The position numbers and the translations under genes are program-made. Of a stretch of DNA of 64,000 bases, positions 1,005-40,665 are shown piece after piece. The stretch comes from Thermomonas beijingensis (GTDB taxonomy: Bacteria; Pseudomonadota; Gammaproteobacteria; Xanthomonadales; Xanthomonadaceae): the NCBI RefSeq assembly GCF_020034655.1, contig NZ_JAIQDJ010000001.1, positions 248,001 to 312,000 of the forward strand, read 5' to 3'. The stretch's first letter is position 1. Each line of letters begins with the position of its first letter. The notes under the pieces were generated by a model that searched no databases, had not been told where the DNA came from, and worked only from the letters and a program-made list of their open reading frames with translations.

Positions 1005-1951
1005 CCGTTACCCACAGCCATCGTCCACGCGGGAATGACCCGCAGGTATTTGGCCGCGTTGCAGTGTTGATGGGCGGCAGCAGCAGCGAGCGCGAAGTGT
1101 CGCTGGATTCTGGCCGCAACGTGCTGGACGCATTGCGTGCACGCGGTGTCGATGCGCATCCGGTGGATGGCATTCCGGCCTTGCTGGATGCCTTGGTGCA
1201 TGGCCAATTTGATCGCGTGTTCAACATCCTGCACGGCAACAAGGGTGGTGGTGAAGACGGCGTGTTGCAAGGTTTGTTGCAAGGCTTCGAAGTGCCGTAT
1301 ACCGGTTCTGGCGTGCTGGGTAGTGCGCTGACCATGGACAAGATCCGCACCAAGCAAGTGTGGCTGAGTGCCGGCTTGCCCACGCCGCGGTATCGGCGTT
1401 TGCAAGCAGGTGCCGATTTGCGTGCGGCGGCGTTGGCACTGGGCTTGCCGGTGTTCGTCAAGCCATCCAGCGAAGGCTCCAGTGTGGGTGTGGCGCGGGT
1501 AGAAACGCTGGACGATATCGATGCCGCCATCGCGGTTGCACGCGGCTACGGCGGTGAGATGTTGATGGAACAAATGGTCATCGGTGATGAACTGACCGTA
1601 GGCATTTTGGGCGCGCAAGCACTGCCCTCAATCCGCATCGTACCCAAGGGGGGTTGGTACGACTACAACGCCAAATACATCGCCGAAGACACCCAGTACC
1701 TGTGTCCTGGGCTGGACGTCGCAGAAGAAATCGCGATTGGTCAGTTGGCAGTGGATGCATTCCTTGCCGCAGGTTGCAGTGGCTGGGGACGAGTGGATGT
1801 GATGCGTGACCGCAGCAGCGGCAAGTTGCTGTTGCTTGAGGTCAACACCGCGCCGGGCATGACCAGTCACTCGCTGGTACCAAAGGCCGCCCGTCAACTC
1901 GGCATCAGTTTTGAAGACCTGTGTTGGATGATCCTGGAGCAGACCTTGTGA
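1001..1951 (+). CDS. ddl: D-alanine--D-alanine ligase
   Basis: Makes the D-Ala-D-Ala dipeptide that ends the peptidoglycan stem. 316 residues, the normal family length. The ATP-grasp fold is shown by an N-terminal [14 protein letters not shown] loop (about residues 25-38), [11 protein letters not shown] in the ATP-binding domain (about 154-164) and the metal-binding [16 protein letters not shown] near the end. The ATG overlaps the murC stop by 4 bases and the gene ends inside the ftsQ start (GTGA), so it is translationally coupled on both sides. In this cluster it is the ddlB-type copy. Confidence 0.97.
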
Positions 1952-2736
1952 AAGCTTTGCTGCGCCCCTTGGCTTGGCTGCTGGCGGTAGCGCTGATCGC
2001 GCTGCCGGTGGTGGCTGTGGTCGAAGGGTGGATGGGCGCGGCGCATTGGCCGCTGCGCACCTTGCGGGTGACCGGGCCGCTGCAACGGGTGGATCGTGTG
2101 CAACTGCAGGCGGTGGTGATGCCACTGGCGCAGCGCGGTTTTTTTGCGGTGGAGTTGGGCCAGGTGCAGCAAGCGGTCAATCGCCTGCCGTGGGTAGAGC
2201 AGGCGGAAGTTCGCAAGCACTGGCCGGATGTGCTGGAAGTGCGGATTCGCGAATTCAAACCGGTCGCACGCTGGGGCGCTACACGCCTGTTATCCGAGAA
2301 TGGACGCTTGTTCCCGGCCGGGAAATTGCAGCTGCCCGCAGGTTTGCCGCTGTTGGATGGTCCGGAAGCCCGGGTGCCGGAAGTAGTGGCGTTGTATCAC
2401 CAGGCGCAACAGCAACTGGTCAATGCGGGCGGGGTGCTGGGCGTGGCGCTGGATCGGCGCGGCAGTTGGTCAGTCACCCTGCACGATGGTACCCAACTGG
2501 TGTTGGGCCGCAATGATGCACAGTTGCGCATGGAGCGCTTTGCTGCGCTGTTGCCGAACTTGCTTGCGCAAAACAACATGCGCCGTTTGCAGCGCGCCGA
2601 CCTGCGTTACACCAACGGCTTTGCACTCACTTGGGCTGTGCCCGAGACACTCCATCCCAGCCGCAGTGGCGCAGCCGGCACCCAATCGCCGCGCAGCGCA
2701 CCCTCATCCACATCTCATCACGGCTCCAACACATGA
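1948..2736 (+). CDS. ftsQ: Cell division protein FtsQ
   Basis: Bitopic inner-membrane divisome protein linking FtsA/FtsZ to the FtsBL/FtsWI synthase complex. I take the GTG at 1948, which overlaps the ddl stop as GTGA and gives 262 residues; an earlier in-frame start would lie deep inside ddl. A short cytoplasmic tail and one transmembrane segment (about residues 7-27) precede the POTRA domain ([15 protein letters not shown], then [19 protein letters not shown]) and the beta domain. The C-terminal 25 residues are Ser/Pro/His-rich and probably disordered. The stop overlaps the ftsA ATG. Confidence 0.93.
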
Positions 2737-24833: not shown

Positions 24834-25917
24834 CTAATTCTCTTTCCATCGCGGCGAAGGCATGGTGCAGTGTCCTTTCGATCGCCGCCGTACGTGGTGT
24901 CAAGTGGCGGACTAGGGCACCGTCCGCATCGTAGGCGATGACGACATAGTGTTCCGCCGTGTGTTTCTTGTCGGAGTCGAAGTGTCGCAGTAGGTCGTCA
25001 GCGGGGATCCTTGCCAGTTCGGCATCCAACCCCGGTACCTGCGCAAGCAACCAGCGTAAATGTGCACGTAGCTTGGAGGCGCGCGCGCAGGATCGGTCGA
25101 CCAGCCCCTGTGCTTCGGAGAATGAAAAGCTGGCCAGCATGCCGAGACCCACCGCGATGCCGTGGCTGATACGGTAGCCGCTCGCACCTTCAAGCGCATG
25201 CCCGAAGGTGTGGCCGAAGTTGAGCAGCAGGCGGATGCCGGTATCGAATTCGTCTTCCTCAATGAAAACCTTCTTGGTGGCGAGGGTCAGGGCGATGACT
25301 TTTACTACGTGGGCAGGGTCACGCAGCAGGTCCCCGGCGTCGGCGAGAGCAAGGTATCTGTCGAAGGCATTGTCGGTGCTGGCGTAGCAGATCTTCACCG
25401 CTTCGCAGAGGCCTTCAATCATCTGTGCAGAGGACAGCGTTGAGCAGAAATCCGTGTCCACCCAGATCGTGTCCGGAGGATAGAAATTGCCGGCGATGTT
25501 CTTGTAGGAGCCGACGTTGATCGAGGACTTGCCGCCGACACACGAGTCGACCATCCCGAGCAGAGTGGTCGGTACGTAATCCCAGCCGATCCCACGCATG
25601 TAGCAGGACGCTGCGAATGTGGCGACGTCCTGGATGATTCCGCCACCGACCGCGATGACCCGCGCGGAGCGTGTGGTGCCACGCTTGCGCAACTGCTCGA
25701 TCAGCACGCCGATAGTATCAAGCGTCTTGAACTCTTCGCGTGCCTGGATGAGGATGCTGGCCTCGCGCTCAAGCCAAGGGTAATAGGTCGGCAGGACTTC
25801 GTCACAAATCAGTATCGCGCGGGAGCCCTCCACATGTGGGCGCACGATTCCGGTGCCGGCCAAGACGTGGTATGACTTCGCGCTAGAGTGAATGTCGAAC
25901 TCAAATGATCCTGACAT
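24823..25917 (-). CDS. 3-dehydroquinate-synthase-like sugar-phosphate cyclase
   Basis: 364 residues. The NAD-binding GGGIIQDVATFAASCYMRG, PTTLLGMVDSCVGGKSSIN and the zinc ligands in GLCEAVK (Glu), NFGHTFGHALE (His) and ISHGIAVGLGM (His) are all present, so catalysis looks possible. Family-diagnostic positions differ: the HGEAV motif of AroB reads HGIAV, and the AroB NHPxGKN loop reads NVGSYKN. The location in a CDP-sugar operon also argues against shikimate synthesis. Relatives in this superfamily make carbocycles from sugar phosphates. It overlaps the SDR upstream by 17 bases and the ThDP gene downstream by 11. Confidence 0.78.
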   Translation of the reverse strand: MSGSFEFDIHSSAKSYHVLAGTGIVRPHVEGSRAILICDEVLPTYYPWLEREASILIQAREEFKTLDTIGVLIEQLRKRGTTRSARVIAVGGGIIQDVATFAASCYMRGIGWDYVPTTLLGMVDSCVGGKSSINVGSYKNIAGNFYPPDTIWVDTDFCSTLSSAQMIEGLCEAVKICYASTDNAFDRYLALADAGDLLRDPAHVVKVIALTLATKKVFIEEDEFDTGIRLLLNFGHTFGHALEGASGYRISHGIAVGLGMLASFSFSEAQGLVDRSCARASKLRAHLRWLLAQVPGLDAELARIPADDLLRHFDSDKKHTAEHYVVIAYDADGALVRHLTPRTAAIERTLHHAFAAMERELDEI

Positions 25918-26626
25918 GCGTGTAACCGAGGTCGACGTTGAGGAATTGACCAGTAGTACCGGTATTGCGGAACGAGGCTAGGCCATAAACGGCTGCAGCG
26001 ACATCATCAAGGGTGGCGAGGCGACCGAAGCGGGTGGAGGCCTCCACATTGCGAATCTGGCTCTCGCTCAGGTTTGCCCGGGTCATCGGGGTTTCGAGAA
26101 CCCCAGGCAGAACCGCATTGACAAGATGACCGTCGCGGCCTAGATCGTTGGCAAGGGAGAGAATCAGGCCTTGGACCGCAGCCTTACTGACGCAATAGGA
26201 CAGCTTGTCCTGACGCGCTTGGTTCTGCCAGATTGAGCTGATGACGCAAAGACGCGAAGGCTTTGTCAGTGCGTCCCGGGTCAGCAGGTGATTGAGCGAT
26301 ACCAGGATTGACAGGACATTGGCCCGATAAATCGATTGGTGGGTGCTGGCATTGAACTGGAAAATGTTGTCGTTACAGTTCGCTCCGTGTGCCCAGCATA
26401 CGGCATCGAAGGGACCGGCTGCAGCGACCGCAGCCTCGCCGGCGGGATCGTCATCTAGCGGATTCCATGCCAAGAATGAGCCAGAAGGTGCGTAGTTTGT
26501 GTCGCGGGTGATACGCACAACCTGCCACCCTTGCTCAGCATAATGTCTGTCGACCGCACCCCCGATGGCACCGGATGCGCCGAACAACAGCAATCGTCCA
26601 GTGCCTGCCGAATCCATTGTCGCCAT
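25901..26626 (-). CDS. Short-chain dehydrogenase/reductase
   Basis: 241 residues. Classical SDR: cofactor loop FGASGAIGGAVDRHY near the N-terminus, catalytic Ser in VISSIWQ, and YCVSK as the YxxxK pair, followed by NAVLPGVLETPMTR. It begins on the last base of the ddhC stop (TAATG), with a second ATG 9 bases on. In yersiniose synthesis a reductase (YerF) reduces the newly added two-carbon branch; this gene is a candidate for a similar keto-reduction here, by position only. Confidence 0.82.
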   Translation of the reverse strand: MATMDSAGTGRLLLFGASGAIGGAVDRHYAEQGWQVVRITRDTNYAPSGSFLAWNPLDDDPAGEAAVAAAGPFDAVCWAHGANCNDNIFQFNASTHQSIYRANVLSILVSLNHLLTRDALTKPSRLCVISSIWQNQARQDKLSYCVSKAAVQGLILSLANDLGRDGHLVNAVLPGVLETPMTRANLSESQIRNVEASTRFGRLATLDDVAAAVYGLASFRNTGTTGQFLNVDLGYTHVRII

Positions 26627-27975
26627 TAGAAACCCAGCCCCAAGAATTCTTCCAGCTTGCCTGCAACATAATCGAGCTGTGCTTCCCCAAGCCCCGGATA
26701 TACGCCAAGCCAGAATGTTTGTTCCATCACAATATCGGTGTTGACCAAATCCCCACTTACGCGGTAGTTGCGGCCGGCCATATAGGGCTGGCGGGTCAGG
26801 TTGCCGGCAAACAGCAGTCGTGTGCCGATGTTGTGCTGGTTGAGGTAGTTAAGCAGGTCAACGCGCCGGATGCCGGAGTTGGGGCGCAGCGTCACCGGGA
26901 AGCCGAACCAGGAAGGATTAGAGTTGAACGTTGCTTCCGGCAGCATCAAGAACTCGGAGCAATTTTGCAGGCGATCATGCAGATAGGCAAAGTTGGCGCG
27001 ACGGCTAGCGATAAACCCTTCCAGTCGATCCATTTGCGCCAGCGCACATGCAGCCTGCATGTCGGTGATCTTGAGGTTGTAGCCCAGATGGCTATAGGTG
27101 TATTTGTGATCGTAGCCATCGGGTAGGCTCCCGCCGAGTTCACGACAGCTCCAGCCAAAACGCTTGCAGCAGGTGTTGTCCTTGCCTGGCGCGCAATAGC
27201 AATCGCGGCCCCAGTCACGAAAGGATTCAGCGATGAGCTTGAGTTCAGGATTGTTGGTAAAGACCGCACCACCTTCACCCATGGTGATGTGGTGGGCCGG
27301 ATAAAAACTTAGGGTGGCAATATCGCCGAATGTGCCCACCATCTGGTCGTTGTATGAGGCCCCCAGTGCATCACAACAGTCTTCGATCAGCCATAGTCCA
27401 TGCTTCTTGCATAACGCCGTGACGGCATCCAAATTGAATGGATTACCCAGGGTGTGCGCCAGCATCACGGCTTTGGTTTTTGGTGAAATGGCCGCTTCCA
27501 GCTGGCTGGCATCTACATTATGGGTGGCAAGATCAACATCCACGAATACAGGGACAGCGCCGAATTGCACGATGGGATTGACCGTGGTCGGGAAGCCGGC
27601 AGCCACGCCAATGACTTCATCGCCAGGTTTGATCGCACGTTCACCGAGGCGCGGACTGGTCAATGTGGAAAACGCAACAAGGTTGGCGGAAGAGCCGGAA
27701 TTCACGGTGATTGCGTGTTTTACGCCTAGATAGTTGGCTAGGCATTCTTCGAACTGGGTATTGAAACGCCCGGTGGTCAGCCAGCCATCCAATGATGCCT
27801 CCACCATCAATTGCAATTCTTTTCCACCAATGACCTTGCCCGACACCGGCACGGCACTAAGCCCAGGGATGAAGGGTTTTGGTGTATGGGCGATGTCAGC
27901 ATAGCGAGCCACCAGCGCAAGGATCTGGTCACGTAGCTGCTCTGCAGAGGAGGGGGTAGAAAGATCAGTGGTCAT
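26626..27975 (-). CDS. ddhC: CDP-4-keto-6-deoxyglucose 3-dehydrase (E1)
   Basis: 449 residues from the ATG at 27975, which overlaps the ddhB stop (ATGA). Aspartate-aminotransferase fold with PMP in place of an internal aldimine: the usual Lys is His in [17 protein letters not shown], the hallmark of the 3-dehydrases RfbH/DdhC and ColD. A cysteine cluster [16 protein letters not shown] supplies the iron-sulfur ligands of the E1-type enzyme. With DdhD it removes the 3-hydroxyl to give CDP-4-keto-3,6-dideoxyglucose. Also called rfbH. Confidence 0.93.
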
Positions 27976-29042
27976 GGTGGGTGACGATAGCCAGAGATTT
28001 GCTGCATGCACAGAATGCGCATGTTTTCGCCATTGCGCCATGCTTTATGCCAATGAACTACATGGGCAAGCGCTTCTTGCAGTGACCAGCGGGGCTGCCA
28101 GCCCAATTGTTGCCGCGCTTTGGAGATGTCCAACTTCAAGAAACTGGCTTCGTGTGGGTGTTCGCCGGGTTGCATCTGCCAGTTGGCATCCCCCCCCCAG
28201 GTTGCGCATAGTTGCTCCACGATCCACTGCACTGGGCGGGCATCGTCATCATTGGGGCCAAAGTTCCAGCCTTCTGCATAGGGTTGCCCTTGGGTGTACA
28301 AGCGTTCTGCCAATTGCAAATAGCCACTGAGCGGTTCCAGTACATGCTGCCAGGGACGAATGGCGTGCGGGTTGCGGATAAGTACGGCAGTTCCGTGCTC
28401 TAGCGCCCGTAAGATGTCTGGCAGCAGACGATCCTGGGCCCAGTCACCACCACCGATGACATTGCCGGCACGGGCGGTGGCCAGTGCAATACCGGCTTCC
28501 TTCAAGAACGAGTTGCGATAAGCACTACTGACCAGTTCCGCGCAACCCTTGCTGCTGGAGTATGGATCATGCCCACCCATCGGGTCTGATTCACGGTAGC
28601 CCCACACCCACTCTTGGTTTTCGTAGCACTTGTCGGTGGTGATGTTGACGATGGCACGTACCGAGCCTGCCTGACGTGCAGCTTCCAACACATGCACCGT
28701 GCCCATCACATTGGTTGCGTAGGTCTCCAACGGTTGCTGGTAGGAGGCGCGGACCAGTGGTTGTGCCGCCAAATGAAACACGATTTGCGGTTGAAGCTGC
28801 GCAAACAATGGCGCGATGGATGCGTAGTCCCGAATGTCGGCGATGTGGTGCGACATGCCTTGTCCAACATCGGCGACATTGAATAACGATGGCGCGCTGG
28901 GTGGTGGCAGGGCTATGCCAGCAACATCTGCCCCCATGGATTGCAACCACAGGCTCAACCATCCGCCTTTGAAGCCGGTATGCCCTGTCAACAGAACGCG
29001 CTTATCCCTCCAGAAATCGGGTGAGATGTTGGATGTACCCAT
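27972..29042 (-). CDS. ddhB: CDP-glucose 4,6-dehydratase
   Basis: 356 residues. Extended SDR with [15 protein letters not shown] at the N-terminus (about 20-34), [17 protein letters not shown] and the active-site YSSSK. It converts CDP-glucose to CDP-4-keto-6-deoxyglucose. The ATG at 29042 shares its A with the ddhA stop; TTG 29051 is an alternative. A run of nine G (coding strand; 28190-28198) encodes the TWGGD stretch near residue 283 and is a possible slippage site. Also called rfbG. Confidence 0.93.
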
Positions 29043-29815
29043 CACGGCCAACGCTTCCAGGGGGCATTGCCGCTGGCCCAGAGCTCTTCCAGATTCGCTT
29101 TGTCGCGCAGTGTGTCCATGGGTTGCCAGAAGCCATGGTGTTCGAAGGCCATGAGCTCGCCTTCATTCGCCAATGTTTGCAGCGGTGCTTGCTCCCAGAT
29201 TGTGCCGTCATCTTGCAGATAGTCCAGCACACGTGGCGAGAGCACGAAGAAGCCGCCATTGATCATGCCACCATCACCGCGCGGTTTTTCTTGAAAGCTA
29301 TCGACTCGACCGTCCTGCATGGACAGTGCGCCAAACCGGCCGGGTGGAATGGTGGCGGTCACCGTGGCGGCTTTGCCATGCGCCTTGTGGAACGCGATGC
29401 AGGCACCGATGTCGATATCGCCCACACCGTCGCCATAGGTCAAACAAAACGCATCATCGTCCCTCAGATAGTCCGCTACGCGCCGCAGGCGACCACCGGT
29501 TTGCGAGTGATCCCCGGTATCCACGAGCGTTACCTTCCACGGCTCTGAGCGACGCTCATGGACGTGCATGCTGTTGGCTTGCATGTCGAAGGTGACATCC
29601 GACATATGCAGAAAATAATTGGCGAAGTATTCCTTGATGATGTAGCCCTTGTAGCCGCAGCAGATAATGAACTCATTGATGCCGTGACTGGAGTAGATCT
29701 TCATGATATGCCAGAGGATTGGCATGCCGCCGATCTCCACCATGGGTTTGGGGCGCACGGTAGTTTCTTCACTCAAGCGCGTGCCCAACCCACCTGCGAG
29801 AATCACTGCTTTCAT
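29042..29815 (-). CDS. ddhA: Glucose-1-phosphate cytidylyltransferase
   Basis: 257 residues from the ATG at 29815 ([14 protein letters not shown]). Nucleotidyltransferase fold with [23 protein letters not shown] and the metal-site [10 protein letters not shown]. It makes CDP-glucose from CTP and glucose-1-phosphate and so starts the CDP-sugar branch. A single base separates it from the ddhD stop, and it is coupled to ddhB downstream (TGATG). Also called rfbF. Confidence 0.94.
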
Positions 29816-29816
29816 G

Positions 29817-30830
29817 TCATTTGGCCTCGCTGGGGGTTGGTGCGGCGGAGCACACAAAGGCATCCGAATAAAACTGATCGGCAGGAAGCCCCGCACGCAG
29901 CAGCGCTGCCTTGGCAGTATGGATCATCGCGTCGGAGCCGCAAGCATAGACAGCAGCATTGGTGAAATCAGGTTGCATCGCCAACAGGACATCCTGTACA
30001 TGGCCGCGTGCGCCTTGCCAAGCATCGTCAGCGCGCGAGAGTACGGGGATAAATCGAGCGGTGGGTATCAAGGCATGTACATCGAAATAAAGATCTTCTT
30101 GCCTACGCCCCCCCCATAGCACCGTGACAGATTCTGGCTGTTGCTCTGAAGGTAGAGTTGTCAAAGCTACAAGCATTGCCTTGACTGGAGCAATTCCGGT
30201 GCCGGTGGCAAGGAAAAATAGCTGCATACCACTACAGGCGCGCAAGATGAACGTGCCCAAAGGGCCGTGTAAGCGCAAAACGTCCTCCGGTTTTGCATCT
30301 GCAAACCAATATCGCGTCATTTCTCCGTCTTGCATGGCGCGAACATGCAGTTCTAGCGTGTTGTTTGGCAAACGGGGATTGGCAATCGAATAGCTGCGGC
30401 GTAGACCATGCTTGCCGATGACGTCGATGTATTGCCCAGGCAAGAACTCGAAGGCGCTGCTGGGAGGTAGTCGCAGTTGGATGCCAACAACATCGGGGGC
30501 TAAACGCTGCAGTGAGTTGATTTTACAGGGCAGTGTGCGCGGAGGAGGAAGTGTGAGATCACCTAGGTCAAGTACTCCGATGCGCAGATCAGTGTCCGCA
30601 GTGCGTGCACAGCTAAGAATCCACCCGTCTGCTTTTTCTTGCTCGGTTAGAGCCAGCTCGGGAAGTAGGGCGTGCGTGCTGCCCGTCATTACTTTGCACC
30701 GGCACGTGCCGCAGCGGCCAGTCTTGCAGCTGTATGGGAGTTGCAGGGATGCGGTATTGGCGGCGTCAAGCAAGGTAATGCCGGTGTTGGCATCAAAGCG
30801 AAAATTTGTAGTGGTGGTAATAACCGGCAT
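29817..30830 (-). CDS. ddhD: CDP-6-deoxy-delta-3,4-glucoseen reductase (E3, 2Fe-2S flavoprotein)
   Basis: 337 residues from the ATG at 30830 ([12 protein letters not shown]). Plant-type ferredoxin domain first, with ligands in [11 protein letters not shown] (about 36-46) and a fourth Cys in SCART; then an FAD domain (RRSYSIANP) and an NAD domain ([13 protein letters not shown], ending YACGSDAMI). It passes electrons from NADH to DdhC for C-3 deoxygenation. A run of eight G (30108-30115 as C on the + strand) falls in the LWGGRR codons. 10 bases separate it from the membrane-protein gene upstream. Also called ascD/rfbI. Confidence 0.92.
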
Positions 30831-30840
30831 ATGATCAACT

Positions 30841-32325
30841 TCAGTAGGGCTTTTCCTTAGAAACATCTAAGGCTTTTGGCTGTCGCATCAATGCCATCAG
30901 AATGGTTGAGTCTTCGTGTGCAAAATAATGCGCCGGGAAGAGAGATCCCGCTTCCGGATGCTCTCGACGAACTGAAGCCGGAATTGTTTTCCCCAGCGGC
31001 TTCCACGCAGGTTCAATGAATGCACGTTCGGGTTCCTGAGCGGCGCTCAATCCACCTACCAGCAATGTTACGACAAGTAGGCCGTGCCAAAGTGTGCGTC
31101 CTTGCTGCTGCGCCAATGGTCTGATCGTAGCCAGGGCGAGTACACATAGTGCTGGGACTGATGCGCGCATCGCAAGGTCATTGCCAATGCCAAGATAGTA
31201 AAAGGGCAACAGACACAATGTCGCTACTGCGATTTGCATGGGGCGATTGAAATGGGTGATACGCGCCAAAATCAGTGCCAAAAAGCCGAATTCCAGCAAG
31301 CAAAACAGCACGTAACGATAGGCAAACAGATCCCATGTGCCCCACATTTCCGCCATCCAGCCGTGCGGGACTTCTGCGGCATCCATGCCTAGATACTTCA
31401 TGGTGAGCAATGCAATGGGTATGAACGCGAAGCAAGACCAGGGGGAGAACAGGATTTTGCGGTCGCGTCGCCATGCCAGCCCGAACAAAAAAAATGGAAA
31501 TAAACCAATAGCCGCCAAAGGTGACCAAAGAGGCACGGCAGTTGCGAGCAGTGGCGTGATGCGCGCGAGGGAGGGCTGCTGCCAGTGGCGCAGAATCAAC
31601 ACAATGCCAAGCCATGCTGGCAACGCATGGTTAGGTACCCAGAATAGCAAGGTGGTATTGGCTGAGTACTGGATGGATGGCATCCACCACTCGATGTGCT
31701 GCCCTGGCACGGCAATTTCTCGATATGCCCATGCATGACCGAGCAAATCCATTCCGCCAAACAGGGTCAACACCAACAAGCAGAGGATGCGTTCGCGCAG
31801 GGTATCGAATAGGCGGCAGGCAGCCAATAAAAACAGCCACCAGCCCAATACCGTCCATAAATAGATTGCGAAATTGGCGGCATCGGGGCCAAATAAATAA
31901 CCGACAGCTGCAGAGGGTAAAAAATAGCCTACAGGCGCACGTAGAATCAGGTGTGAAGCATCAGCGAGCAGGTAGGTTGGCGGCCAGCCACTGACGGATA
32001 GGTCATGCAGGACAGCATCGCGAGTAAGCCAGTCCGAATTGGAGTAGAAAAAATGACCAACGCCGGCAACTGCAGTCCATCCTAGCGATAGCGCAAAAAC
32101 ACTTAAAATGAATTTTGTGTTTAATCCCGTTGATCCTGTCGATGGGCCACGCAATGCTTGCCATGAGGCGAAGCTTGTCAATACCAGCAAGATAGCTGTT
32201 GCTAGTGGGATAAACCACAGGCAGAACAGAAGGATTGGGAGAATGAGATAGATGGCGATGGATTGGTCGATCCAATCTAAGCTAGTTGCCGGCGAAGACG
32301 CTGTCGCTGCACGAGGGATGAGCAC
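30841..32325 (-). CDS. Multi-membrane protein of unknown family, possible glycosyltransferase
   Basis: 494 residues with roughly eleven hydrophobic helices. It begins with GTG directly after the previous stop; GAGGAG lies 9 bases upstream and supports the start. After the first helices comes a polar loop SNSDWLTRDAVLHDLSVSGWPPTY with several Asp residues, a GT-C-like arrangement, but it lacks the HDSxxYxGQ and DLFF marks of the three 640-residue paralogues. I do not recognise the family. The location between the FAD protein and ddhD points to use or transport of the island sugar. Confidence 0.6.
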   Translation of the reverse strand: MLIPRAATASSPATSLDWIDQSIAIYLILPILLFCLWFIPLATAILLVLTSFASWQALRGPSTGSTGLNTKFILSVFALSLGWTAVAGVGHFFYSNSDWLTRDAVLHDLSVSGWPPTYLLADASHLILRAPVGYFLPSAAVGYLFGPDAANFAIYLWTVLGWWLFLLAACRLFDTLRERILCLLVLTLFGGMDLLGHAWAYREIAVPGQHIEWWMPSIQYSANTTLLFWVPNHALPAWLGIVLILRHWQQPSLARITPLLATAVPLWSPLAAIGLFPFFLFGLAWRRDRKILFSPWSCFAFIPIALLTMKYLGMDAAEVPHGWMAEMWGTWDLFAYRYVLFCLLEFGFLALILARITHFNRPMQIAVATLCLLPFYYLGIGNDLAMRASVPALCVLALATIRPLAQQQGRTLWHGLLVVTLLVGGLSAAQEPERAFIEPAWKPLGKTIPASVRREHPEAGSLFPAHYFAHEDSTILMALMRQPKALDVSKEKPY

Positions 32326-33882
32326 TTATTTTTTCTCCTCGTGATACTCATCATCCACATTGATGCCCCAGATTGCCGCCTTATCCACCACGCCCGCAGC
32401 AATCTGCCGCGCCGCTTCCTTGGCAGTGAGCATGGAGTGATCTTGGTTGTTGTAGCGATGCATACCGTTGCGACCGATCAGGAACAGGTTGGGTACCGCA
32501 TCCAGTGCGGTCTGTAGTTCGTCAAAGCGCGTATAGGCTTCGCCGAAATAGCCGGGATACGCTTTGGGAACATGCAGCACCACCGCATCCAGCGGCGCAT
32601 CGGCGCGCACCAGCCCGATCTGCACCATTTCCTTGTGGGCCATGGCTTTCATCGAGGCCTCGTCCATGTTCCAGAGTGCATCTTCTTCCTTGCAGAAGAA
32701 CTCCAGTCCCATCCATAGCGTAGTGGGGTCGGCCACCATATAGGGGCTCCAGTTATTGAACACCTGCACGCGACCTACATTGACCCCGGGTTCTTGGATG
32801 TAGATCCAGTTATCGTCCAGTTGGCGTGGGATGGCGCTGCGCGGGTAGAGCAGGCCCACGGTGATGAAATCGCGGTAGGAGAGTTGGCTGGCGATGCTGC
32901 GAACCTCCTGCGGGAAGCCACTGCCAGCAGCCTGTACCAAATCCTTGATGGGCATGGTGGAAAGCAGGTGACTGCAAGACAGCAAATGTGTCGAGCCCTG
33001 TGCATCACGGTAGGTGATGCCTTGCACGTGGCCGCCGTGCATATGGATGCCCTCCACGCGGCTTTGCATCAGCAGCATGCCGCCCTGCGCCACAAACCGT
33101 TGCGCGGCGGTTTCCCACATTTGGCCGGGGCCGTACTTGGGGTACAGGAAGCTTTCAATCAGCGAAGTCTGTTCGGCCTTGCCGCCCAGCCCCAGTACTT
33201 TCTTCAGGGCATGGGTAATGGCTTTGACAATGGATAGGCTCTTGATGCGCTGCGCGCCCCACGCGGCGCTGATTTCACCGCAGGGCACGCCCCAGACTTT
33301 TTCGGTGTACTCCTTGAAGAATTGCAGGTACAGCTTGCGACCGAAGCGGTTGACCAGGAAGTCTTCCAGCGAATGTTCAGGTTTGCGTGGATGGATCTTG
33401 GCCCAAACATAGCTGAGGCCAAAAGTGAAGGTCTTCCACGGTCCCAGCTTGAGCAGGGTGTCGGGGTTGAGCTTGAGCGGGTAGTCGAAGAACTGCTTGT
33501 TGAAGTAGATGCGCGAGAGTCGGCTGCGCACCAGCAGTACGCCTTCATCAGATTCCTTGGCATTGCTGGCAGGGACGTTGGCGCTGGCGCCTTGATAGCG
33601 CAGTTCGCGCCCGCTGCTTGTGTCGGCAGGTGCGGCGACTGGCATCAACTTGCGCCACCAGTCCATTACCCAGTCGGACTTGGAAAAGAACCGATGCCCG
33701 CCGATGTCGATGCGGTTGCCGTGATGCTCCACGGTGCGAGAGATTCCGCCCACTTGCGTGTCCGCTTCCAGCACGGTGATGTTGTCAATGCCAGCGGCCT
33801 GTAGTTCAAGTGCAGCGGTCAGGCCGGCAGGACCCGCACCGACGATGACGATGGCATGTTCTGTTGAATTGGAATTGCTCAA
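32326..33882 (-). CDS. FAD-dependent oxidoreductase, UDP-galactopyranose-mutase/amine-oxidase-like
   Basis: 518 residues. The dinucleotide-binding [16 protein letters not shown] is followed by an FAD-contact stretch [11 protein letters not shown] and [12 protein letters not shown]; the C-terminal FAD motif is [16 protein letters not shown]. Family members in polysaccharide loci are often annotated as protoporphyrinogen-oxidase-like or mutase-like without proven function. The only reasonable start is TTG at 33882, overlapping the GtrA-like stop (TTGA), with GGGGA 7 bases upstream; no in-frame ATG exists near it. It may catalyse a ring contraction or a redox step on a sugar; this is speculation. 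Confidence 0.75.
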
Positions 33883-34322
33883 ACCACATTCCCCGAGGCG
33901 GCGCGACTGCGGCGCGATGTAGCAAAGAGTAGCGTTTTACGGGCGATGTAGTTGAAGGCAAACGTCACCACAGCGGCGGCCAGCTTCACTGCTTCTGGCA
34001 GTAGGCCCAGTTCTGTGACGCCGATCCACAACACCAGCTGGGTGATCGCCAGGCCTGCCACACCAATGCCAACAAAGGTCAGGAATTCGAGTGCGGGTGC
34101 ATTGCCGAACGCGCGCGCCCTAAACACCCAGCGGATGCTGAGGACATACGCCACAATCGCACCGGTGATGAAGCCCAGTGTTGCCGACCATGCCAAGCTC
34201 AGGTGCAGTAACCGCAGACACATCGAGAGCGTGCCGGTATCCACTAACAGCGCCAGCAGAGAGGCGGCGAAGTAGCGGATGAGGTCATGCTGCAAAAGTC
34301 TGGCGTTAAGGTGCTGGCGCAT
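33879..34322 (-). CDS. GtrA-like membrane protein (first copy in island)
   Basis: About 147 residues from the ATG at 34322 ([10 protein letters not shown]), overlapping the upstream gene by 17 bases. Four hydrophobic helices with the GtrA pattern [18 protein letters not shown] near the start and [13 protein letters not shown] at the end. GtrA-family proteins are believed to flip polyprenyl-linked sugars. It differs clearly in sequence from the second copy at 20842-21246, so the two may serve different lipid-linked sugars. Confidence 0.82.
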
Positions 34323-36261
34323 GCGGTGTTGGCTGTGCTGATGATTGGATTGTGATGCCGGTATTTGCCAGCTCGCGACAAGCGTACAAGTAATACGTCG
34401 ATTCGGCACCGTTGTCAGGTGCCCAGATACCTGCTGCTGGGTAATTCAATGGGTAGTACAGGACGACATAGGTGAGCTTGTTCCGAGAATTCTCGCAAGC
34501 CTGACGCACGGCAGCAGCATCAGGCTTGCATGCGATGAAAGGCTCTTTGGGGAAGACCACGATGCGGCAATCCTTGCCTTGCGCATCCTTCACATGCAGG
34601 AGTTCTTTCCGTCGATAACCTTCGATGGATGTGGCGCGATTGAACACGATGCCGGACAACTGCTGTTGCTGGATGTAATGCGAGCGATGCAATACGCTCC
34701 AGGCCGGCAACAGGTTACCTAGCCATAACACTTGCGCATCGGGAGCGATGTTGATCCCGAAGGGTTGCGCATCATGCATCGGATCTGTGAACGCACGCTG
34801 CAGTGCAGAGCGCTGATCCCATTGGTATCCAGAAAATAGTGCGGCAAAGAAGAGGGCTGGAAGCGCAATCCAATACAAGCGGGCTGTGGCGTAGCGCTGC
34901 CAAAACCATAGGGTTGCCAACACTGTCGGCAATGACAGAGCGGCTGGCAGGCGTGGCTGCATCAGTGCATCTACCCAACGCATAGTGCCAAGCGGTGCGC
35001 CCCAGGGAGTCAGGGCTAGCGTATTGGGTAGCACGTAAATCATTGCGACGCCAAGGCACAGCACCACCAGAGTGCGCTGCAGTGGCATGCCAACGCGTTG
35101 ACTCAGCCAAGGCCAAACCCAATACAGCAGTGCCGCAATCATAAACATCGGGTGCGCGGCGGATGGCATCAACCCCAAGACCACGGCGCAGACAAACACC
35201 AGCAACCGGAGCTTGTCATGGGCAGGCTGTCGCCAAAGGCGTACGCAGAGCCAAGGCAACATTGCGGTGGCTGTCCAGTGCAGCAACCAATGCACACGCC
35301 ACAGTTGCAGTCCTGCCCCCCAAGCCAGATGCAAGCCATCGGCCAAGAGCAATCCAAGGGCAAATAGCATCACTGATGCACCGAGAACAGAGTGCAAATA
35401 CCGGCGCAAAGCCGGGGCTGCATGGCGGGCGGCGACTGCAGCTACGAACAGATCCTTCACTAAATAGTTCCAATCGCCAACGCCTGACTGCGAATAGAAC
35501 ACCACCAAATTTCGATCCCACACTTGCTGGAACCAGAGTGCATCCATGCGGGCAGTCAGAAAACTCAACTGCGGCAAAGCAAAACACGCTGCCGCCGCGA
35601 GTGTCGGCAGCCATAGCAAATGCAGCCAGCGGCGATCTTGCTGGGCAAGCCACAACCAGCCGATAACGAATGCAGGTCCCGCTTGCAAGGGGTGCAATGC
35701 GAGCGCGGCAAGCCCAAGCAGGCCGGCCAAGGTGCGGCGTTGTGCCACCAGCGCTGCAAGTGCTGCCAAGCACAAGGGCTCGGCAAAACTGCGCCCGGTA
35801 AGGAAGGGTTCGGCGTAGGACAAAATACCCCAAGCACCGTAGCTTGCCGGCAGCAGAAGCAGTGCCAGCAAGGCGGGAAAACGTGATGACTCTGGCAGCA
35901 GTTGATGCAGTAGCCCCCAGCTGGCAATGACAAATGCCAGCAGCCCGGCCAGCGTCAGCCACAAGAACGCGTTGCCAAGACCCAGCGTCTGAACCAGGTG
36001 CGCCACTAGGCTTGGGAACAAACTGAATTGCGCTTGGCTGCCGTAGGCAAAAAACAGATCGTGTGCAAATGGCGCCGGATCGAGTAGCGCAAGCACTTGG
36101 CCTGCGTAGATCGTGCTGTCGTGCAAAATGCCGTGATAGGGATGGAACAGCAACAGCAGGACAACAGCAAGCAAGCTTGCAGCCAGTGTTGTGGCGAATC
36201 CAGATTCGAGCCTTGGCTGTTTGGGGGGGCTTTGCTCTGTTGTAAGGAAGCCGGCGTTCAA
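34306..36261 (-). CDS. Multi-membrane protein, candidate GT-C-type glycosyltransferase (paralogue 1)
   Basis: 651 residues from a TTG at 36261, chosen because GAGAGT lies about 7 bases upstream; a TTG at 36312 would give 668 residues but has no visible ribosome binding site, and no ATG occurs in the N-terminal half. After one helix comes LHDSTIYAGQVL ... HDLFFAYGSQ, matching the two proteins at the other end of the island, as do HRSHYIQQQQLSGIVFNRATS and the final YYLYACREL. It is the island gene closest to the pilins (85 bases), the place where Pseudomonas aeruginosa carries the pilin glycosyltransferase genes tfpO or tfpW. Confidence 0.6.
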   Translation of the reverse strand: MNAGFLTTEQSPPKQPRLESGFATTLAASLLAVVLLLLFHPYHGILHDSTIYAGQVLALLDPAPFAHDLFFAYGSQAQFSLFPSLVAHLVQTLGLGNAFLWLTLAGLLAFVIASWGLLHQLLPESSRFPALLALLLLPASYGAWGILSYAEPFLTGRSFAEPLCLAALAALVAQRRTLAGLLGLAALALHPLQAGPAFVIGWLWLAQQDRRWLHLLWLPTLAAAACFALPQLSFLTARMDALWFQQVWDRNLVVFYSQSGVGDWNYLVKDLFVAAVAARHAAPALRRYLHSVLGASVMLFALGLLLADGLHLAWGAGLQLWRVHWLLHWTATAMLPWLCVRLWRQPAHDKLRLLVFVCAVVLGLMPSAAHPMFMIAALLYWVWPWLSQRVGMPLQRTLVVLCLGVAMIYVLPNTLALTPWGAPLGTMRWVDALMQPRLPAALSLPTVLATLWFWQRYATARLYWIALPALFFAALFSGYQWDQRSALQRAFTDPMHDAQPFGINIAPDAQVLWLGNLLPAWSVLHRSHYIQQQQLSGIVFNRATSIEGYRRKELLHVKDAQGKDCRIVVFPKEPFIACKPDAAAVRQACENSRNKLTYVVLYYPLNYPAAGIWAPDNGAESTYYLYACRELANTGITIQSSAQPTPHAPAP

Positions 36262-36345
36262 CCCGATACTCTCGACGCTTGGTTCAGCCGGGTATCTTGC
36301 ACCAGCAAGCAACTAGGCGAGCGGCGATGCGTGCAACGCCTGCAC

Positions 36346-36678
36346 TCAAGTTGCCAAGACGCAGTTGGCAGTTTCCATATCGCAGGTTGTTGTCTTGACG
36401 CCAGGATCCTGTGGGGTGCCAGTAATGGGCGCACTCATTACGGTAGCGGTGGTTGCTGTTTTGCAGGCCCTAGCAGGGGGCGCGCTTGGCGTGGTCTTGG
36501 TGTAGATGGCCGCCAGCGAAAAATTCGCGTAATTTTTCATCTCCATCTGGCAGGCCCCCTCTGCCGAGCGGATGCGGTAATTGTTGTACGCCGGCAGGGC
36601 GATGGCAGCCAAGATGGCGATAATCGCAACAACGATCATCAGCTCAATCAGGGTGAAACCGGATGTGCTGCGGTTCAT
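36346..36678 (-). CDS. pilA: Type IV major-type pilin, downstream copy
   Basis: 110 residues. Short basic leader ending in Gly (MNRSTSG), cleaved by PilD before Phe, then [19 protein letters not shown] with the conserved Glu5 and the N-terminal helix. The mature protein is short. The globular part has four Cys (GACQ, ARACK and a closing CDMETANC loop) and a Thr/Ser/Pro-rich stretch TTPSAPPAR that could carry O-glycans. It is preceded by its own sigma-54 promoter at 36715-36730. It shares 36 of 37 residues around the N-terminal helix with the second pilin but diverges after it. Confidence 0.92.
36550..36660 (-). repeat. Pilin 5' direct repeat, copy in downstream pilin
   Basis: 111 bases encoding the N-terminal helix to the first Cys. 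It encodes 36 of the same 37 residues as 37026-37136 in the other pilin, in the same orientation about 476 bases apart. Third-position differences show the copies are not recent perfect duplicates, but recombination between them would fuse the two pilins. Confidence 0.8.
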
Positions 36679-36714
36679 GGTCGGTGCTCATGGAGATGAC
36701 TCAACAGACCACTG

Positions 36715-36730
36715 AGCAAGAATCGGGCCA
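36715..36730 (-). promoter_or_regulatory. Sigma-54 promoter of downstream pilin
   Basis: Read on the minus strand: TGGCCCGATTCTTGCT. It has the invariant GG, ten bases, GC, and matches the consensus TGGCACG-N4-TTGCW at all but one position. It lies 37 bases before the pilin ATG, so the transcript start would fall about 25 bases upstream of the gene. It follows the terminator of the other pilin, so the second pilin has independent control. Confidence 0.8.
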
Positions 36731-36758
36731 ATGCAGTTGATTTCAGCTGAGTGGCCCC

Positions 36759-36784
36759 AAAAAAAAGAGGGGCCGAAGCCCCTC
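36759..36784 (-). terminator. Strong intrinsic terminator after upstream pilin
   Basis: On the minus strand GAGGGGC, loop TTCG, GCCCCTC, then eight T. A 7-bp GC-rich stem with a stable tetraloop and long U-tract is a textbook terminator. It lies about 30 bases after the stop of the upstream pilin gene and in front of the promoter of the downstream pilin, so it separates the two transcripts. Confidence 0.9.
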
Positions 36785-36815
36785 TATTGGTACTACCAAC
36801 TGTTGGCGGCTTGGA

Positions 36816-37151
36816 TCAGGTGGCCAGCGTGCAGGTGCCGATATCGTTTTCGCAGGTGGTTGCCTTGTCGCCAGGGCTTGCCGGGTTGAAAACGGTGGTG
36901 CCGCTGATCGTGGTCACCGCCGTGGTCGGGCCACTGCAAGCCTTGGCCTTCGGGGTCGGGGCGGACATGCCCGGGGTCATGTTGGCGGCCACGGCGGAGT
37001 TGATGTAAGCCTTGGCTTCGGCTTGGCATGCGCCATTGGCCGAACGGATACGGTAGTTGTTGTACGCCGGCAGCGCGATGGCGGCCAGGATGGCGATGAT
37101 CGCGACCACGATCATCAGTTCGATCAGGGTAAAGCCTTGTTGGTTCTTCAT
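36816..37151 (-). CDS. pilA: Type IV major-type pilin, upstream copy
   Basis: 111 residues from the ATG at 37151, preceded by AGGGGAT. Leader MKNQQG, then [19 protein letters not shown]. Four Cys (GACQ, KACS, TTCE and GTCT), the last two enclosing a short C-terminal loop; the protein ends CTLAT, like CVLAT in the other pilin. It has a sigma-54 promoter at 37252-37267, a long upstream region with a dyad, and a strong terminator, so it is a self-contained, PilS/PilR-type regulated gene and the likely major pilin. Confidence 0.94.
37026..37136 (-). repeat. Pilin 5' direct repeat, copy in upstream pilin
   Basis: Partner of 36550-36660. It covers the codons from the cleavage-site Gly to the first Cys. 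A crossover would delete the terminator, the second promoter and one C-terminal domain. Confidence 0.8.
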
Positions 37152-37251
37152 GGGTAGATCCCCTAGGGTTTTGGGTGGGTATTCACGTGCCGCAGTGCTC
37201 GCTGATCCAGTCCTTCGGCAGCCGTGCGTGTGGCACGTGCGGAAGGTAACA

Positions 37252-37267
37252 TGCAGGATGCGTGCCA
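37252..37267 (-). promoter_or_regulatory. Sigma-54 promoter of upstream pilin
   Basis: Read on the minus strand: TGGCACGCATCCTGCA. The -24 element TGGCACG is a perfect consensus match and the GG-N10-GC spacing is exact. The predicted transcript start is near 37240, giving a leader of about 90 bases before the ATG. PilR, encoded immediately upstream, is the expected activator. Confidence 0.88.
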
Positions 37268-37361: not shown

Positions 37362-37386
37362 ATTTGTGACATATCGCGTCACAAAT
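37362..37386. promoter_or_regulatory. 25-bp dyad, candidate PilR activator site
   Basis: ATTTGTGAC (37362-37370) and GTCACAAAT (37378-37386) are perfect 9-bp inverted arms with a 7-base spacer. The centre is about 134 bases upstream of the predicted sigma-54 transcript start, within the usual distance for enhancer-binding proteins. Another GTGAC lies at 37346-37350, 20 bases from the GTGAC of the left arm. Assignment to PilR is inference. Confidence 0.5.
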
Positions 37387-39057: not shown

Positions 39058-40665
39058 TCAGCCGGTGCTGATCGCACGGACGCCGGTCAACCGGATCCGA
39101 AAGCAGGTGCCGCCGGCTGGCAAGGGGATGTGTTGCAGCTCGGCCTGGTTGGCTTGGCACATCTCCTGGGCGAGGTAGAGCCCCAGCCCGGTGCCGTGGC
39201 TGGAGGTGGTAAAGAATGGGCGAAACATCTGTGCCGCCACGGTTTCCGGGATGCCGGGGCCGCGATCTTGCACATCCAGCACCGGCGCGCCTTTGTCATC
39301 GCGGTACACATGCACGCTGACGTGTGCCGGTGCGCCGGGCATGCGCCCGTACACCAGTGCGTTGTGCACCAGCACCGTCACGATTTGCTGCAATTGGCGG
39401 CGATCTGCCAAGCAGGGGAACGCGCCGGGTGCGACTTTGATGTCCAAGGTGTCGTTGTCCAGCGGGTGGTTTTGCAGATATTCGGCGACAAACTGACGCG
39501 CAAATTCGCCCAAATCCAGATGCTCGTGCTGGGCGCGTTCGCGCCGGGCCAGCCCCAGCACGCTTTCCACGATGCCATTCATGCGGCGGGTCTGCTGGTA
39601 GATGATTTCCAGCAGGCGGCGGTCGGAGGCGTTGATGTCTTGCGACTCTTCCAGCAACTGGGTGGCGTAGCTGATGGCCGCCAACGGATTGCGAATTTCG
39701 TGCGCCAAACTGGCAGAAAACCGGCCCAAGGTGGCCAAGGTCAGGCTCTCGGCGCGGCGTGACGCCAGCTCGGCATCGTCCAGAAACACCAATACCTGAT
39801 CACCTTCGGCCAGCATGCGTGCAAAGCGCGGCAGGATTTCTGGCAAATCCTGTGCCAATTGCAGGGGGGTAGTGTCTTGTGTGCCATCGCGCTCCCACAA
39901 GCGCAGCCGCGCATACAGCGCGGGCGCGGCGGTGGCCAGCATGCGCCGGCCCTCGCCGGCGGCACCCAGATGCAGCAACGCGGCTTCATTGGCCAGCCGG
40001 ATCTCGCCATCCCCATCCACCAGCAACACGCCGGTGCGCATGCGGCGGATGATCAACTCGTTCACTTCGGCCAGATTGGCGGCTTGGCTGCCGCGATGTT
40101 CGGCCAGAGCGGCGGTGGCGCGCAATTGTTGGCCCAGCAAACTGGTCAATGTTGCAATTGCCAGATAGCTGAGCGCGAACATCGGAATTTCGATCAGCGG
40201 GCGGTTGATGGCCTCTTGGGTCAGGTAGCTCCAGGCCAGTTGCAGCGCCAGCGCCACGCTGGCGATGGCGGCCAGCATCAGCCCCTTGCGCAACGGCAGG
40301 AACAACGCGGCCGCGCCGATGTTGAACAACAACATCATCGCAATGCCCGAGCCCACATTCGGCAGTGCGTTGGTGGCCAGCGTGCTGGCCAGGATGTCAA
40401 GACTGATGCCGGTCCATACTTGGGTGTTGACTTGGCCACGACGGCCACTGAAGAACAAGGCAATGGCGGCAATCAGGTAAACAATAGCGATGCCCGCAGC
40501 CAAGTGCGGGTGCCGCGGCTGGCCAAAAATCATGCCAACTGGGGCGAACACGGTCAAACACAGCAGCGCCGCTTCCAGCAGCCGATACAGGGTGAACGAG
40601 TACAGCTCGCGGCGAATCGCGACCTGCAGTGACTGGGTGTCGGAAGGAAGATAGGCCTGCAACAT
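39058..40665 (-). CDS. pilS: Sensor histidine kinase PilS
   Basis: 535 residues from the ATG at 40665 (MLQAYLPSDTQSLQ). Six hydrophobic helices (about 25-190), a PAS-like region (NELIIRRMRTGVLLVDGDGE), the phospho-accepting His in SLAHEIRNPLAAISYA (about 322), and the ATPase boxes HNALVYG, DRGPGIP and GTGLGLYLA. It pairs with PilR and in Pseudomonas senses pilin level in the membrane. The frame stays open upstream through the opposite strand of sucC-sucD; that extension is a shadow. Divergent from sucC. Confidence 0.94.
   Translation of the reverse strand: MLQAYLPSDTQSLQVAIRRELYSFTLYRLLEAALLCLTVFAPVGMIFGQPRHPHLAAGIAIVYLIAAIALFFSGRRGQVNTQVWTGISLDILASTLATNALPNVGSGIAMMLLFNIGAAALFLPLRKGLMLAAIASVALALQLAWSYLTQEAINRPLIEIPMFALSYLAIATLTSLLGQQLRATAALAEHRGSQAANLAEVNELIIRRMRTGVLLVDGDGEIRLANEAALLHLGAAGEGRRMLATAAPALYARLRLWERDGTQDTTPLQLAQDLPEILPRFARMLAEGDQVLVFLDDAELASRRAESLTLATLGRFSASLAHEIRNPLAAISYATQLLEESQDINASDRRLLEIIYQQTRRMNGIVESVLGLARRERAQHEHLDLGEFARQFVAEYLQNHPLDNDTLDIKVAPGAFPCLADRRQLQQIVTVLVHNALVYGRMPGAPAHVSVHVYRDDKGAPVLDVQDRGPGIPETVAAQMFRPFFTTSSHGTGLGLYLAQEMCQANQAELQHIPLPAGGTCFRIRLTGVRAISTG

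Follow-up and report, generated by a model that had tools for sequence, protein, structure and literature searches.

Do two tandem genes for similar type IV pilins, lying beside the genes of the regulators PilS and PilR, form one operon, or is each controlled on its own, and by which activator? The question is raised by pilA1 and pilA2, on the minus strand of a 64-kb stretch of the Thermomonas beijingensis genome (the whole stretch of DNA analysed, hereafter the window). The sequence and its conservation in related genomes suggest that the two pilin subunits are probably controlled unequally, and we favour, with a probability of roughly 0.55, a model in which one PilR enhancer would serve two unlike sigma-54 promoters and a further control would act on pilA1 at the RNA level. 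PilR, bound to palindromic sites that lie about 108 bp ahead of the pilA1 promoter, would fire pilA1, and the pilA2 promoter, with a seemingly better -12 element and no enhancer of its own, would most likely be fired by PilR at the pilA1 enhancer by looping over about 645 bp. The pilA1 mRNA alone would carry a leader whose stem and two GGA sites may add control of stability or translation, plausibly through RsmA/CsrA, and a single signal would yield pilins that differ both in promoter strength and in post-transcriptional control. Two similar major pilins are a feature of related bacteria, and a fixed regulatory asymmetry offers a testable reason for unlike roles. In Xylella, deletion of pilA1 raised twitching and deletion of pilA2 lowered it, according to the available part of the report (PMC9956873).

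The two sigma-54 promoters

The genes and promoters concerned are the following.

36816..37151, minus strand: pilA1, type IV pilin of 111 amino acids, first of the pair, with PF07963 (N_methyl)
36346..36678, minus strand: pilA2, type IV pilin of 110 amino acids
37562..38983, minus strand: pilR, with receiver, AAA+ sigma-54 activator and Fis helix-turn-helix domains
39058..40665, minus strand: pilS, with 6TM_PilS, HisKA and HATPase domains
37252..37267, minus strand: sigma-54 promoter P1, TGGCACG-N4-CTGCA, reading TGGCACGCATCCTGCA
36715..36730, minus strand: sigma-54 promoter P2, TGGCCCG-N4-TTGCT, reading TGGCCCGATTCTTGCT

The pilA2 product is 60% identical to that of pilA1, whose nearest solved structures are type IV pilins. 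Both pilR and pilS lie upstream of the pilins on the same strand, pilR with its full domain set adjoining the pilin, and the genome encodes one RpoN (205 bits). The first-pass annotation of this DNA had proposed two sites with GG-N10-GC spacing, and both were recovered on the minus-strand sequence, 116 nucleotides (nt) before the ATG for P1 and 52 nt for P2. They are the only mismatch-free matches to TGGCNCGN4YTGCW on either strand of the window. Matches with one mismatch weigh against a reading from the motif itself: they occurred at chance level (15 found, 13.25 expected), so that motif strength alone is weak evidence and position and conservation carry the reality of the sites.

Conservation was followed in two samples. 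A pilA1 match at an E-value of 1e-8 was obtained in 24 of 25 genus genomes, three of them weakly, and the genus loci comprised 25 stretches around such matches, from 20 genomes besides the source genome. For the family (Xanthomonadaceae), a covariance model of the pilA1 leader (R1) was built from 28 leaders and begins 22 nt inside the promoter, so that the -24/-12 boxes are excluded from it; 80 of the places that it matched outside the genus were fetched, at least four of which (L160, L180, L200 and L218) probably come from the same genomes as loci behind R1 (L010, L009, L008 and L022, respectively). A pilin is present at each of the 80. The leader model reached more genomes than the query P0001, which at an E-value of 1e-20 matched 11 of 119 family genomes, because pilin heads diverge. 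A second pilin occurred within the stretch in 60 of 100 pilA1 loci, and within 800 nt in 54, which are the adjacent pairs referred to below.

Both promoter types stand in one stretch in 20 genus genomes, including the source genome, with the pilA1 site 111-121 nt and the pilA2 site 36-62 nt before the ATG, the shortest of the latter distances going with an extended start codon; a further genus genome (G021) has both types on two contigs. At the family level, where a site had to agree with at least 9 of 12 consensus letters, 79 of 80 loci showed a sigma-54 site 124-147 nt before the pilin Gly codon. A site near the second pilin, as at pilA2, was present in 35 of the 54 adjacent pairs (17/18 in the genus, 18/36 elsewhere). 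The controls in these pairs gave none on the reverse strand and none at 10-54 nt, and five, two and one at 101-146, 147-192 and 193-238 nt upstream, respectively; chance origin of the near sites was rejected, as similar distances recur and neither the reverse strand nor the 10-54 nt window holds any. Moreover, among 27 named loci scanned, 14 had a pilin and nine had two, and five of these nine carried the near site (Lysobacter, Xanthomonas, Luteimonas twice and one metagenome-assembled genome). The proposal that each pilin has a sigma-54 promoter of its own is thereby upheld at the level of sequence.

The two promoters differ in grammar, with VTGCG at the -12 element of pilA1 and TTGCT at that of pilA2. 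In the genus, 17 of the 21 pilA1 sites have CTGCG and 17 of the 22 near sites TTGCT, one of these 22 (L142) lying at an unpaired pilin-like gene; over all loci, T opens the element in 7/103 pilA1 sites versus 36/41 near sites, and G closes it in 83/103 pilA1 sites.

Some loci are arranged otherwise. Five second pilins without a near site carry a sigma-54 site at 116-189 nt instead, and in L169, L172, L173 and L202 the second pilin has a pilA1-like site at 116-133 nt, where the whole pilA1 unit may have been duplicated. L131 and L233 hold three tandem pilins, with the far site only at the first, the near site only at the third and none at the middle one.

Both sites of the source genome thus combine spacing and elements, a conserved place and an RpoN gene in the genome, and RpoN dependence of these pilins is likely by analogy with Xylella fastidiosa pilA1 (XF2542), an RpoN-controlled pilin gene of a related bacterium whose sigma-54 promoter was mapped by primer extension, was the best scoring of 44 predicted sites and is probably controlled via PilR/PilS (PMC3224663). 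Unlike the pair studied here, Xylella pilA1 is the only pilin named as sigma-54 dependent in the available part of that report, which describes no second pilin promoter, enhancer asymmetry or leader (PMC3224663). Similarly, RpoN2 and PilRX control the major pilin gene pilAX of Xanthomonas oryzae, and the available part of the review mentions no paired pilin promoters there (PMC8657755). Two observations weigh on the other side. In Xanthomonas citri, which also has two major pilin genes, fimA and fimA2 (XAC3241/XAC3240), rapid amplification of cDNA ends (5'RACE) located the start of fimA 113 nt upstream, together with -35/-10 boxes, in the available text (PMC4804567). In Xanthomonas euvesicatoria (L015), 100 nt separate the start of the best sigma-54 site from the ATG, and the start mapped in X. 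citri, if transferable, would consequently lie upstream of that site.

A conserved leader at pilA1

In the predicted pilA1 transcript the start is closely followed by a predicted stem between the 5' end and a segment about 40 nt further on, and the RNA elements of the locus are as follows.

37152..37241, minus strand: pilA1 leader RNA, about 90 nt, start predicted about 12 nt after the -12 GC
37232..37239, minus strand: predicted 5' arm of the 5'-terminal stem of the leader
37184..37191, minus strand: predicted 3' arm of the same stem
37210..37215, minus strand: AAGGAC loop with the conserved GGA, candidate RsmA/CsrA site
37159..37163, minus strand: GGGGA ribosome-binding site of pilA1, second candidate RsmA/CsrA contact
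36679..36704, minus strand: short pilA2 leader, start predicted

The conserved leader, which had no place in the first-pass annotation, is as judged from alignments confined to pilA1 of the two pilins; in the part of the alignment inspected, the pilA2 leader showed no conserved block besides P2 and the terminator upstream of it. The model R1 matched 129 of 197 family genomes, with a single match in 120 of the 129. It matched 19 of 200 genomes in the order sample, 18 of them in the Xanthomonadaceae, and 3 of 276 in the class sample, namely the source genome and two weak matches. Rfam gave four matches in the window between 36200 and 37700, all below the gathering score, and none in 12 fetched loci, one of which (L117) holds no pilA1 leader. 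The pilA1 leader is a candidate regulatory RNA without an Rfam family where searched.

Conservation of the leader sequence is strong, and the fold is likely rather than proven, the covariation being mixed. In 20 genus leaders, three of the eight stem pairs changed on both sides, with 10 cells versus 3.2 in shuffles (reached in 0/500), and in 28 leaders the stem and the ribosome-site hairpin together gave 8 cells versus 1.7 (0/500), in shuffles that keep shared descent in, so that kinship is not removed from these figures. Additionally, across 88 leaders the highest corrected mutual information of any two columns belongs to a pair of this stem. Several results weigh against the fold. Counted as pairs changed on both sides, the 20 leaders gave 3 versus 1.6 in shuffles (64/500 reach this value), and counted as stem pair types 5 versus 4.6 (252/500); the corresponding figures for the 28 leaders, stem and ribosome-site hairpin, were 2 versus 1.2 (158/500) and 7 versus 5.2 (3/500). 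The top 20 column pairs include no other pair of the stem, RNAalifold on the 88-leader alignment returned only a small ribosome-site hairpin and not the 5' stem, the folding energy is modestly below that of shuffles (mean z -1.15, with 48/88 leaders below -1), and the first stem is at least 50% formed in 50 of the 88 leaders.

By eye, many of the family leaders inspected offer the 5' sequence GCACGUGC two partners with which it can pair, the far GGCACGUG and a closer GCACGG, and two mutually exclusive leader folds are possible.

The ANGGA hexaloop is the form recognised by RsmA, and the layout of the leader suggests RsmA/CsrA control. An enclosed GGA is present in 85 of the 88 leaders (median unpaired probability 0.78), ANGGA occurs in the enclosed region of 62 of the 88 versus 16.6 expected from shuffles, and 84 of the 88 have a GGA at the ribosome site; the leader thus offers at least two GGA, one in a loop by prediction and one at the ribosome site, and the source genome encodes CsrA. 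Two findings count against RsmA: the ribosome-site GGGGA is mostly paired in the prediction (median unpaired probability 0.37), and in 11 of 20 genus leaders the motif is GGGA, the first A of ANGGA being absent. A resembling case is the hrpG leader of X. citri, in which RsmA binds a looped GGA and the mRNA is stabilised; hrpG is a different gene with a different leader, the pilA1 site is a candidate only, and GGA leaders of hrpC and hrpE are not bound by RsmA, as given in the available part of the report (PMC3937308). An action of RsmA on the pilA1 leader is accordingly proposed only tentatively, at somewhat less than an even chance.

Instead, the leader might do no more than shield an abundant mRNA by its 5'-end stem, or might serve as a substrate for the helicase HrpB, with no role for RsmA. 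The stem is the part of the leader with some covariation, and in X. citri the 5' leader of fimA is predicted to be structured, with three loops, and fimA mRNA is less stable without HrpB, in the available part of that work, which carries no analysis of leader conservation (PMC4804567). A bare stem, however, needs neither the enclosed GGA of 85 of the 88 leaders nor ANGGA at almost four times the shuffled count, and this account is a real possibility that we would put a little short of even.

A candidate enhancer and two transcription units

Upstream of P1 lies an element whose palindromic form and place suggest a binding site of the activator.

37363..37385, no strand assigned: candidate PilR enhancer, or upstream activating sequence (UAS), TTTGTGAC-N7-GTCACAAA; GTGACGC-N3-GCGTCAC

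Its centre is 108 bp from the -24 element of P1 and 645 bp from that of P2. The dyad TGAC-N7-GTCA occurs once in the window, at 37367-37381, with 0.87 expected by chance, and the weight for the UAS is consequently carried by place and conservation. Within the 260 nt preceding the promoters, 108 copies of this dyad were found in 103 pilA1 regions versus none in 41 pilA2 regions. At least one exact copy was present in 80 of the 103, and at least two in 28, usually at intervals of 29-33 bp; the dyad has the consensus aaaGTGACGCaatGCGTCACttt, and the median distance from its start to TGG is 112 bp. With a weight matrix from which the scored pilA1 locus was left out, and a threshold at the 99th percentile of one mononucleotide shuffle per pilA1 region, a UAS was scored in 97/103 pilA1 but 2/41 pilA2 regions.

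The dyad is read as a candidate PilR site because it is located at a sigma-54 pilin promoter adjoining pilR. CRP sites have the form TGTGA-N6-TCACA, and a CRP/Clp site was set aside as the identity of the UAS since the spacing of the dyad differs. The PilR site of Pseudomonas aeruginosa takes the form of TGTC pairs, which were rare in the upstream regions searched and were dropped as candidate PilR sites. Several points weigh against PilR at a shared enhancer: binding of PilR to the dyad is presumed from where the dyad lies, in six of the 103 pilA1 regions no UAS reaches the threshold, and 23 have no exact dyad. Moreover, six loci have their second pilin at a distance of 2.0-4.0 kb behind pilA1, and three of these (L132, L136 and L184) keep the near sigma-54 site with no UAS beside it, so that long looping or another activator would be needed there.

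With the UAS nearly confined to pilA1, pilA2 would use either the pilA1 enhancer about 645 bp away or another activator. One PilR enhancer common to both promoters is our best guess, although we place it slightly under an even chance. The source genome holds seven matches to the sigma-54 activator domain, four weak (20.8-28.8 bits) and three strong, the latter being PilR, an NtrC-like protein, read as NtrC from the histidine kinase gene beside it, and a third response regulator. With only three strong activators, few compete for pilA2.

Firing of pilA2 by the NtrC-like protein or the third response regulator, with two signals for two pilins, would explain why the pilA1-type UAS is almost absent there (0/41 exact, 2/41 by matrix) and why the near site is kept in three of the six loci with a distant second pilin, and the genome does encode these two further strong activators. 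On the other hand, pilA2 sits beside pilR, and the most enriched words in the 260 nt ahead of the pilA2 promoters belonged for the most part to terminators or coding sequence, with no dyad among the words tested, no full motif search having been run. We consider another activator unlikely, though worth keeping in view. Far less probable is a direct and separate action of PilR at each promoter, as the first-pass annotation had it. That reading, separate tuning by the adjacent PilS/PilR, stands as regards two units and the presence of RpoN and PilR, and the two sigma-54 promoters do adjoin pilS/pilR, but it is supported only in part, since it presupposes a PilR site at each promoter and the one candidate PilR enhancer found lies upstream of pilA1 (97/103 pilA1 versus 2/41 pilA2 regions).

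A shared enhancer would act on two separate units, divided by the following element.

36759..36785, minus strand: intrinsic terminator behind pilA1, 8-bp stem (36785-36766) and 8 T

This terminator, noted already in the first-pass annotation, ranks first of 14 terminator-like sites between 35000 and 39000 (shuffled mean 4.2), and one is kept behind pilA1 in 53 of the 54 adjacent pairs, against a mean of 2.1 and a maximum of 6 in shuffled intergenic stretches; on the reverse strand 24 of the 54 pairs show one, as expected of symmetrical hairpins. Owing to the conservation of terminator and promoters, sequence evidence firmly supports pilA1 and pilA2 as two separate single-gene transcription units, and the earlier statement that they do not form one pilin operon is well supported. 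A single operon, of the kind suggested for X. citri fimA, fimA2 and pilB, in which the second motif would be a relic, draws on the 19 of 54 adjacent pairs without a near site (five of which have a farther one) but is rejected as very improbable, given the terminator in 53/54 pairs and a near promoter at similar distance in 17/18 genus pairs. Unlike the pair studied here, fimA and fimA2 are treated as a possible operon with -35/-10 boxes in the available part of that report (PMC4804567).

Apparent pilin exchange and the surrounding genes

In a tree of 78 pilins (39 pairs), the promoter class changed at least 12 times on well-supported branches, in a tree of few columns and long branches whose bootstrap was unsettled. 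From these changes, pilin coding sequences were apparently exchanged or homogenised under fixed control regions. The widest form of the model would hold that in much of the family one PilR enhancer drives two sigma-54 promoters of unlike grammar, that the undescribed leader of pilA1 alone lets RsmA set the pilin ratio within the same pilus after transcription, and that the coding sequences were replaced or homogenised while the control modules stayed fixed; as a whole we regard this extension as rather doubtful.

Two related major pilins, PilA1 and PilA2, also share a locus in Legionella pneumophila, where a PilS/PilR-like operon is separate; unlike the Thermomonas pair, PilA2 there forms pili, and no sigma-54 pair is described in the available part of the report (PMC13170364). 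Judged by title or start of the abstract, our literature search, which left most subscription papers outside, found no report of paired sigma-54 pilin promoters, PilR sites, RsmA with pilA or a pilA leader, and by the same measure none of shared sigma-54 enhancers in the literature searched.

A third pilin-like match in the source genome (L003) was rejected as a third pilin of the pilA kind, being a GYF_2 fusion. At L117 (positions 1709-2338, minus strand; C10 of the source genome), a protein of 209 amino acids combines a GYF_2 domain at its N terminus with a membrane helix and a PilA-like head, without a prepilin cleavage motif.

Positions 25901-36312 of the window, on the minus strand, hold a run of glycan genes that follows pilA2 immediately, the terminator list containing no entry between the two. 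The run encodes a 668-amino-acid protein, GtrA, an amine oxidase-like protein, a 494-amino-acid protein, a ferredoxin reductase and RfbF/RfbG/RfbH (CDP-dideoxyhexose); the 668- and 494-amino-acid proteins had no Pfam or NCBIfam match. The GtrA and amine oxidase genes occur in six of 124 loci and the gene for the 668-amino-acid protein in one. The run may be read from the pilA2 promoter, and its role is perhaps in sugars of the pilin or of the O-antigen.
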